A DNA stretch of 64,000 bases from contig NZ_PTLZ01000001.1 of assembly GCF_003293745.1 (NCBI RefSeq), positions 124,001-188,000 on the forward strand, read 5' to 3'. Within the stretch, counting starts at the first letter, position 1. Every line of letters begins with the position of its first letter. Below are positions 8,792 through 45,086 of the stretch, in pieces. Both the position numbers and the translations under genes were made by a program. Under the pieces are notes generated by a model. The model ran no database searches. It was not told where the DNA came from and saw nothing but the letters and a program-made list of their open reading frames with translations. Source of the stretch: Herminiimonas fonticola (lineage in GTDB: Bacteria > Pseudomonadota > Gammaproteobacteria > Burkholderiales > Burkholderiaceae_D).

Positions 8792-9112
8792 TTAGCCCGG
8801 ACTAAAAACCTTCAGCCCGATAATTCCGCTGACAATCAACAGTATGCAAATAATGCGCGCTACCGTAGCCGGTTCACCCAGCAACACCATCCCCAGAATG
8901 ACCGTACCCACCGCGCCTATCCCGGTCCACACCGCATAAGCAGTCCCCACCGGGAGTGTTTTCATCGCAAAGCCCAGCAACACGATGCTGATCACCATCG
9001 CCGTCACGGTGCCGACAGTCGGCCACAACTTCGTAAAACCATCCGTGTATTTAAGCCCGATGGCCCACACCACTTCGAACAGACCTGCAATTACCAGAAT
9101 TAGCCAAGGCAT
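8792..9112 (-). CDS. gdx: Guanidinium exporter, SMR family (Gdx/SugE)
   Basis: Protein of 106 aa with four membrane helices, the standard size for small multidrug resistance proteins. The first helix contains [13 protein letters not shown], where the Glu is the essential proton and substrate binding residue, and the WAxGLKYT pattern is typical of the SugE/Gdx branch. That branch exports guanidinium. ATG 9112 is favoured over an ATG 15 bases upstream because a GGGGAA ribosome-binding site precedes it and because the protein then starts like its relatives. A guanidine-II riboswitch lies in the leader, which independently supports the substrate. Confidence 0.94.
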
Positions 9113-9122
9113 ATTTTGATTC

Positions 9123-9178
9123 CCCACATTGCCGAGGCCGTCCCCGATTGATGATGGAGAGGTGAGGTCGTCCCCACG
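9123..9178 (-). promoter_or_regulatory. Guanidine-II (mini-ykkC) riboswitch controlling gdx
   Basis: On the minus strand two short hairpins carry the family's defining ACGR loops: GTGGGG-ACGA-CCTCAC (9178-9163) and CGGGG-ACGG-CCTCG (9147-9134). Directly after them comes the ribosome-binding region GTGGGGAA (9128-9121), then ATG 9112. The hexamer GTGGGG of the Shine-Dalgarno region is identical to the 5' arm of hairpin 1, so the CCTCAC strand can pair with either. This suggests that without guanidine CCTCAC covers the ribosome-binding site, and with ligand it returns to hairpin 1. Hairpins and loops are seen; the mechanism is inferred from the known class. Confidence 0.92.
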
Positions 9179-9411
9179 TCCTTGAAAGAAATACGCGAAC
9201 CAGAAAACGTGATGTTTGCTTTACGGCAACCGACGTTACCGACGCGCAATCAAATCTTAGCAAAGAACGATTTTTTTGGCTGAGCGAAAAAATATTGCCA
9301 CAATTGAAATTTCAACGAGGGAAAGCGCCTGAAATCAGGCATCTTTGTTTATAGAGCGGCAAGAAAAGACATCATATTCATAAATTGAATACCTGATATT
9401 TGAAATCGGAA

Positions 9412-9441
9412 TTGGTGCGTCGCGTCAACAATCCCTATACT
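9412..9441 (+). promoter_or_regulatory. Sigma-70-like promoter of small RNA 1
   Basis: TTGGTG (9412-9417) and TATACT (9436-9441) are separated by 18 bases. The predicted start is near 9448, just before the conserved RNA block. Confidence 0.7.
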
Positions 9442-9447
9442 TCAGTT

Positions 9448-9511
9448 GTCTCCTCTATGTCTCCTCCTTTGATATAGATTTAGCCCGCCTTTTTTGAGCG
9501 GGCTTTTTTTT
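9448..9511 (+). ncRNA. Small RNA 1 of a tandem pair, anti-Shine-Dalgarno hairpin loop
   Basis: Predicted ~64-nt transcript. It begins after the promoter at 9436-9441, contains TGTCTCCTC, then a stem TCTAT/ATAGA that presents GTCTCCTCCTTTG in its loop, and ends in a terminator AGCCCGC/GCGGGCT with eight T (9504-9511). CUCCUC is complementary to the ribosome-binding site GAGGAG, so the RNA could block translation of many messages or act as a sponge. RNAs with such anti-SD loops are known in alpha- and betaproteobacteria; membership in a named family is not claimed. No ribosome-binding site or reading frame fits it as a gene. Confidence 0.8.
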
Positions 9512-9620
9512 GCCCATTTCTTGTGCAGCGCAGATTTTACCTGACGCAGCCGCAATACCAAGGCAATACTATTTTCAAAATGGTATTCATCAATCGCATA
9601 TCGGATATCAGAAATGAGAA

Positions 9621-9651
9621 TTGGCCTTGGTCAGGGGCGCAGCCCTATACT
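9621..9651 (+). promoter_or_regulatory. Sigma-70-like promoter of small RNA 2
   Basis: TTGGCC (9621-9626) and TATACT (9646-9651) with a 19-base spacer, in the same place relative to the transcript as in copy 1. Confidence 0.6.
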
Positions 9652-9657
9652 TCGGTT

Positions 9658-9720
9658 GTCTCCTCTATGTCTCCTCCTTTGATATAGATTCAGCCCGCTC
9701 CCGTAGCGGGCTTTTTTTTT
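9658..9720 (+). ncRNA. Small RNA 2 of a tandem pair, anti-Shine-Dalgarno hairpin loop
   Basis: Second copy. The block from 9656 to 9690 repeats copy 1 base for base (TGTCTCCTC, TCTAT stem, CTCCTCC loop, ATAGATT). The terminator AGCCCGCT/AGCGGGCT is followed by about nine T (9712-9720), with a different loop. Its own promoter makes it independently expressed. It ends about 30 bp before the convergent tagI gene, so it may also terminate or face that transcript. Confidence 0.8.
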
Positions 9721-9750
9721 GCCCGCGAACAAACTCACCTGCGTCCAGAC

Positions 9751-44664: not shown

Positions 44665-44749
44665 AGTTTGCTCACTCAACAATCGCGTTATGGACAAGCG
44701 CGCGAAGGAACGAACAAAGAGTCTCTGGGGGAATAACCTTGAGTGGCTT

Positions 44750-44832
44750 TGCGCTTCCCTACGCTGGCATTATCCAGGTCAGGTTCAAGGGTTTCATCTC
44801 ACCCAAAGACATTTGTCTTCAGGACCCCTAGC
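44750..44832 (-). promoter_or_regulatory. TPP (thiamine pyrophosphate) riboswitch
   Basis: On the minus strand the leader contains GGGGTCCTGAAGAC, then GGGTGAGATGA, then ACCCTTGAACCTGACCTGG, ATAATGCCAGCGTAGGGAA: the conserved THI-element core in the right order. Downstream CCACTCAA (44747-44739 region) can pair with TTGAGTGAG (44679-44671) close to the start codon, a plausible switch that hides the ribosome-binding site when TPP is bound. The aptamer call is strong; the expression mechanism is inference. Confidence 0.95.
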
Positions 44833-45086
44833 GTGGACCGCATACTAACATGGAAAAAGTAGCGTACGGAACGGCATTTTTACCGAAAGTTGCAGCAAAT
44901 ATCGCCGATCTTAACCGAGATCAATTTATGCAGGTGGGCGATGAATGCCGCGCTGGATTTATCCCACTGGCATGCATAGCGCTACGTCAGAATGATGAGG
45001 GGGGTGCAATAGGGATCGCGACCTTGTTGCCAGATTTGGAGGTTGACTGGGTGAACAGATCTTGTTTTTAATGCAAGGTAGCAAAT

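Follow-up and report, generated by a model that had tools for sequence, protein, structure and literature searches.

A stretch of 64,000 nucleotides from Herminiimonas fonticola, referred to here as the window, carries between positions 9375 and 9722 one small unit in two copies, each composed of an upstream box, a -10 element, an RNA of ~65 nt, and a terminator, and the locus raises the question of what these RNAs are, what they act on, and why there are two of them. An earlier note on this DNA had described two near-identical promoter, RNA, and terminator units 210 bp apart, a description borne out by a 56-nt direct repeat, 96% identical and starting at 9433 and 9643 (spacing 210), by matches to an RNA family, and by the predicted folds. 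All parts lie on the forward strand. In the first copy, the upstream box occupies 9375..9415, the -10 element TATACT 9436..9441, and the sRNA 9447..9511, within which are a 5′ hairpin (9454..9478) and a terminator hairpin with U tract (9482..9511); the corresponding positions in the second copy are 9584..9624, 9646..9651, 9657..9719, 9664..9688, and 9692..9719. The boxes were delimited by an alignment of 26 copies from 13 genomes of the host genus and by a pattern search of the H. fonticola genome, and the -10 elements by the alignment, where TATACTT is kept in 25 of 26 copies. The sRNAs were assigned by family-model score and fold, both 5′ hairpins by folding (the first also by family-wide changes on both sides of its pairs), the first terminator by fold and model match, and the second by terminator scan and fold. 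A generic consensus promoter scan detected neither sRNA promoter, and of the sRNA terminators a generic terminator scan detected the second but not the first; alignment and folding are therefore the basis for both promoters and for the first terminator. The terminator scan also reported one unrelated terminator-like site at 9327-9340. The start of the first unit, earlier placed at 9382, is moved by the shared promoter box to ~9375.

The earlier note knew of no named family for these RNAs, but both are members of Rfam RF02278, "Betaproteobacteria toxic sRNA," matching its covariance model over the full length (model positions 1-64) with 70.2 and 72.0 bits against a cut-off of 50 (E values of 3.9e-12 and 1.4e-12 for the window). 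The founding paper of RF02278 is reportedly Kimelman 2012, and for other members inhibition of E. coli growth upon overexpression is reported. In a permissive scan, all other Rfam families scored below their own cut-offs and were rejected (Trp_leader, 34.1 bits; suhB/mmgR, 28.6; anti-hemB, 27.7; NmsRb, 27.2; GcvB, 22.5; and two lower). According to the available passages on Herbaspirillum, a member of the host family, predicted RF02278 sRNAs there start 24-47 nt before the model match, and for this reason the RNA starts at 9447 and 9657 are not certain. The covariance-model search across relatives that had been proposed for the pair gave matches in 107 of 116 host-family genomes (102 above the cut-off) and in 128 of 200 genomes of the order (75 above it), both counts being likely lower bounds owing to stricter filters, and none in 14 control genomes. 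The nine host-family genomes with no match comprise five of genus g7, three of g41, and one of g28, and their sizes are 1.7-2.6 Mb; no genome of g7 or g41 has a match and some other small genomes retain the RNA, which leaves loss accompanying genome reduction as a suggestion only.

The H. fonticola genome (3.1 Mb, 11 contigs) contains five RF02278 matches at E ≤ 0.001, three of them above the cut-off. The third copy lies elsewhere (locus L003, 1501-1564); its 5′ end still reads UGUCUCCUCC, but its loop is CUUCUCAAG and no upstream box precedes it. Similar third copies occur in the four relatives examined (L153-L156), three of them with CUCC in the loop. Two weak matches (L004 and L005, around position 1501; 34.8 and 29.3 bits) bear UCUCAAG or UCCUCAAG in the first hairpin and, judging from these sequences, perhaps represent another group of double-hairpin RNAs.

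Bases 1-34 are identical between the two RNAs of the window and their terminator loops and -35/-10 spacers differ, as the earlier note had read the two copies. Each RNA contains the 9-mer TGTCTCCTC two times, at positions 1-9 and 12-20, and the complement of this 9-mer, GAGGAGACA, has four matches in the window, all within the sRNA pair, where 0.18 would be expected. The predicted structure of each RNA consists of a 5′ hairpin, whose loop UCCUCCUUU comprises nine unpaired nucleotides, and a terminator hairpin leading into a U tract; bases 1-7 and 16-24 are unpaired. The minimum free energies are -21.8 kcal/mol for copy 1 and -22.1 kcal/mol for copy 2 (z scores of -5.24 and -5.76), and for each RNA none of 200 shuffles folded as well. 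The loop UCCUCCUUU, present in both folds, holds the general anti-Shine-Dalgarno (anti-SD) core, in agreement with the earlier observation of a loop complementary to ribosome-binding sequences.

Covariation was assessed in 19 distinct RNAs hand-chosen from 46 to span the hairpin types, with 12 pairs counted. Two hairpins whose helices are backed by changes on both sides, the structure expected of an RF02278 member, were found: both-side changes occur in 5 of the 12 pairs, a count reached by 2 of 500 shuffles, and across the wider family they fall in both helices, including two of the five counted pairs of the 5′ helix. Among the 19 RNAs, 99.1% of cells are paired compared with a shuffle mean of 90.2%, and the covariation score was reached by none of 500 shuffles, although related sequences can beat shuffles without structure, a caveat on the test as a whole. 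The number of further pair types among the same 19 RNAs was no higher than in shuffles, 149 of 500 reaching the observed value. Three helix 1 pairs are invariant across the 19, partly because these RNAs had been chosen by a fixed 5′ core; all 46 RNAs carry this core, so that some helix 1 pairs could hardly vary.

The tandem pair is found at the same place in all 13 genomes of the host genus with a spacing of 206-228 bp. A SET-domain-like gene and a glycosylase-like gene are present at all 13 loci and sugE at nine; the four loci without sugE have the SET-domain-like gene and no sugE match between it and the pair. In the window, a sugE-like gene, named by eye, lies upstream of the pair on the reverse strand (8792-9127) with a Guanidine-II riboswitch directly upstream of it (9133-9179, reverse strand; 43 bits), and downstream of the pair, convergent to it, is a gene that by eye resembles 3-methyladenine DNA glycosylase I. 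Far from the pair, the window also contains a TPP riboswitch (44739-44839, reverse strand; 62 bits). All 26 copies from the 13 genomes agree at RNA bases 1-32, a count in which bases 1-9 and 11 were fixed by the pattern TGTCTCCTC[CT]A used to locate the copies; the family model alone recovers the same 26, so none was lost through the pattern filter. The conservation of the core in related genomes for which the earlier note had called, with helices that covary, is thus present. In the -35/-10 spacer, by comparison, 0.53-0.64 of positions differ between copies across the genus.

Close pairs also occur beyond the host genus, in at least three genomes among the matches listed: two of genus g13, with copies 190 bp (G076) and 223 bp (G095) apart, and one in the order set, with copies 378 bp apart (G028). 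Genus g6 of the host family has looser clusters, one with five TGTCTCCTC-core copies in 19 kb (L232, 3972-18868) and one with four in 15 kb (L233, 2861-12870), in which neighboring genes look unrelated and loops change from copy to copy. The literature searched, which covered few subscription journals, contained no description of a tandem RF02278 pair or of sRNAs from the host genus. The pair is a known RNA family in an unusual and well-kept tandem form.

The 41-bp box precedes each of the 26 copies without gaps and reads TATTC-N7-GAATA, then ATAnCnGATAT, GAAA, and AATTGG; the dyad ATTC-N7-GAAT is exact in only 11 of 26 copies and ATAnCnGATAT in 22 of 26. The box is a possible activator site overlapping the -35 region. 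LysR-type promoters have a T-N11-A dyad near -65 and a second site near -35, and our guess from the layout is that the box resembles such a site. A 20-base box pattern allowing up to three mismatches matched the H. fonticola genome at the two sRNA copies only. Over the 13 genomes it matched 25 of the 26 tandem copies and also hit 12 places elsewhere, one of which overlaps a tandem box on the opposite strand, and the search did not reveal the activator. One box-like sequence with three mismatches recurs in three genomes; in two of them (L183 and L185, near position 1500) it lies between ORFs that by eye are TetR- and AcrA-like, and it is probably an unrelated operator.

A weight matrix built from the 26 copies was applied to the 24 best-scoring copies from other genera of the host family. 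The box was found at -72/-73 in all 11 copies of hairpin type A, the type of the 26 copies themselves (six genera), and both copies of the related type C (one genus), above all 200 shuffles in each case, and in none of the 11 copies of type B (seven genera); the shuffles were of single bases, and hairpin type tracks genus, which makes the copies interdependent. Of the 28 loci in the order-wide set, 23 were scored and five excluded because the core was not located at the expected place. The box is present in the sole scored copy from the host family and in none of the 22 from outside it, where one type A copy has no box; 19 of the 23 are type B. None of five third copies in the genus scored positive, one being marginally above its own shuffles. 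By these sequence comparisons, the box has so far been seen only in one bacterial family. We lean, with modest confidence, towards a sub-branch of RF02278 in the host family with its own activator-driven promoter, the 41-bp box fixed at -72/-73 and tied to hairpin types A and C, with the tandem pair fixed in one genus; the commoner, boxless type B RNAs may arise by processing like the Bordetella sRNA S17.

Candidate targets were sought as AGGAGACA-N(1-10)-ATG, which occurs at 15 places in the H. fonticola genome, 14 of them with an ORF of at least 60 aa. This is not clearly commoner than the mean of four control tails in the same genome (15 vs. 13.25), and the full 9-mer GAGGAGACA precedes ATG nowhere in that genome. 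Eight of the 14 genes serve carbon uptake or catabolism, compared with one (strict) or four (lenient) of 26 controls (one-sided Fisher, 0.0003 strict and 0.009 lenient, with classes set post hoc); the controls were the first 30 of 53 AGGAGWWA places less four with ORFs under 60 aa. The eight candidates are a 2-methylcitrate/citrate synthase, an acyl-CoA dehydrogenase, two TRAP receptors, an FAA hydrolase, a TctC receptor, an AceE-like protein (cut by the locus end), and an acetoacetyl-CoA reductase. Solute-binding proteins alone were not significantly enriched (3 of 14 vs. 1 of 26 controls; p 0.11). Predicted duplex energies with the 5′ seed are -12.7 to -14.6 for 13 of the 14 sites and -6.7 to -12.1 for 8 of the 26 controls, a gap that follows from the sites having been picked for complementarity.

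Some of these sites are conserved. Of the eight genomes with a close prpC, seven have AGGAGACA at the prpC site and one has CGGAGACA; in the other five of the 13 genus genomes only a distant citrate synthase is present. Seven of the 14 site-bearing genes have an ortholog (at least 90% identity, starting at the ATG of the site) among 37 GGAGACA-ATG stretches of G116, compared with none of the 26 controls, for which one 86% match is a downstream neighbor; this comparison is descriptive only, the control genes being without the site from the outset. A genus-wide count of GGAGACA-N-ATG had a reversed-pattern control only, with Shine-Dalgarno content uncontrolled, and was not used as evidence.

Several described systems resemble the pair. 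In a study of Burkholderia cenocepacia (PMC5688073), RF02278 RNAs are short double-hairpin RNAs (ncS03, ncS05, ncS27, and ncS62); biofilm, starvation, and glucose medium go with a greater abundance of ncS03, ncS05, and ncS27, binding is predicted at the ribosome-binding sites of genes for transport and carbon metabolism, and ncS27 overexpression attenuates growth. A review adds that ncS27 affects growth with phenylalanine, tyrosine, glycerol, and galactose (PMC10987360). The H. fonticola RNAs share with these the sequence and structure of the whole model, the CU-rich 5′ end and loop complementary to ribosome-binding sites, the terminator, and the several copies per genome. They differ in being tandem, the Burkholderia copies being reported as not tandem in that study, in repeating the whole 9-nt seed in the first hairpin, and in the upstream box common to the copies; a common upstream motif is also reported for three Burkholderia copies (PMC5688073).

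S17 of Bordetella pertussis (PMC11722255) is compared to RF02278 by its authors, is Hfq dependent, and has one regulator as a direct target of repression. About 90 genes are affected by it (the text gives 91 or 92), and of the roughly 90 raised on its deletion, 70 match its single-stranded sites at or near the ribosome-binding site. Set beside the pair by its description, S17 appears closely similar to RF02278 RNAs: it has a conserved 5′ region, its Sites 1 and 2 pair at ribosome-binding sites, and transporters are prominent among the genes it is described as affecting. S17S is described there as cut by RNase E from a 190-nt precursor, whereas here each RNA has a -10 element immediately before it, and primary transcripts are therefore to be expected. 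PrrF1/PrrF2 of Pseudomonas aeruginosa likewise share one intergenic region in tandem and have very similar sRNA genes; they are iron-regulated sRNAs of another kind.

From these observations we infer how the pair would be transcribed, activated, and used, and a pair of tandem RF02278 double-hairpin sRNAs, acting in trans from their own promoters to block a limited set of carbon genes, is probably the right reading. Each unit would be transcribed from its own promoter, the common upstream box likely being bound by one transcription activator. Each ~65-nt RNA would present the seed UGUCUCCUC twice, at the 5′ end (bases 1-7, unpaired) and in the first hairpin (the last five bases in the loop), and, probably with Hfq, would pair to AGGAGACA-type ribosome-binding sites and so block translation. 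The physiological role would lie in a limited target set for carbon-compound uptake and breakdown, for example prpC, aceE, phaB, and TRAP or TctC receptors, and the two copies would raise dosage and be kept alike by selection and partial gene conversion.

The earlier note had proposed a broad translational repressor or sponge. Its basis, complementarity to ribosome-binding sequences, stands, but such breadth is less likely than an mRNA-specific repressor, since the Burkholderia RNAs and S17 target the ribosome-binding sites of genes for transport and catabolism. The broad version would be a general anti-Shine-Dalgarno decoy or growth brake that mimics the 16S rRNA tail or covers ribosome-binding sites at large. 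The loop does contain the general anti-SD core, and its CCUCCUUU is the usual 16S rRNA end. According to the passages available, RF02278 was named for toxicity in E. coli and ncS27 overexpression slows growth (PMC5688073), both of which such a decoy would explain; however, the invariant seed reaches beyond the SD complement, S17S overexpression is described as sparing exponential growth of E. coli BL21 with only entry into stationary phase modestly impaired, and the roughly 90 genes raised by S17 deletion likewise speak for something other than a general brake, which we regard as quite improbable. By arrangement, the pair would work most like NmsRA/NmsRB of Neisseria, sibling sRNAs in tandem that are under stringent-response control and use their anti-SD segments to repress prpC and genes of the TCA cycle (PMC5362039), and the tandem sibling layout is present in all 13 genomes of the host genus. 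That the pair is their orthologous counterpart, under the stringent response, would account for this layout and for prpC being a target there and having a candidate site here, but the NmsRb model (RF02877) gives 27.2 bits (E 0.065) against a cut-off of 52, and the genomic place is another, lrp being described as adjoining the Neisseria pair. By membership the pair belongs to RF02278, and orthology with the Neisseria siblings is very unlikely.

Duplication and gene conversion might by themselves account for the likeness of the two copies, being a pair then having no special role, a reading compatible for each single RNA with trans-acting repression of carbon genes. Between the -10 element and +1, copies differ by 0.069 within a genome and by 0.149 between genomes, with none of 5,000 permutations as low, and within-genome likeness is weaker in the spacer (p 0.018) and the terminator part (p 0.021) and gives p 0.064 in the upstream box; neither the region far upstream (0.76) nor the T tract (0.92) shows homogenisation. 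The two copies thus appear to exchange sequence within a genome, the homogenisation being partial, and to judge from this pattern the likeness of the window's copies is partly due to gene conversion. The likeness of the two copies, which the earlier note had taken as a sign of selection on the RNA, is for that reason no proof of it alone; its conclusion survives through the invariance of bases 1-32 in 26 copies across 13 genomes, a real sign of selection on the RNA core in these alignments, and through covariation. With the pair present in all 13 genomes with diverged spacers, and therefore old, and its core invariant across genomes, conversion as the whole explanation seems unlikely.

RF02278 is widespread, yet carries a name that implies toxicity, and the passages on the family address its transcriptional control mainly for S17, through a Bvg effect. 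If the box-bearing sub-branch is real, the making and control of the sRNA would have changed there with the seed left unchanged, and a box at a fixed distance in one branch would offer a direct handle on the signal that switches these RNAs on; this branch deserves follow-up. The tandem pair, with its invariant RNA and drifting spacers, offers a clean example in nature in which to ask why such siblings stay duplicated.
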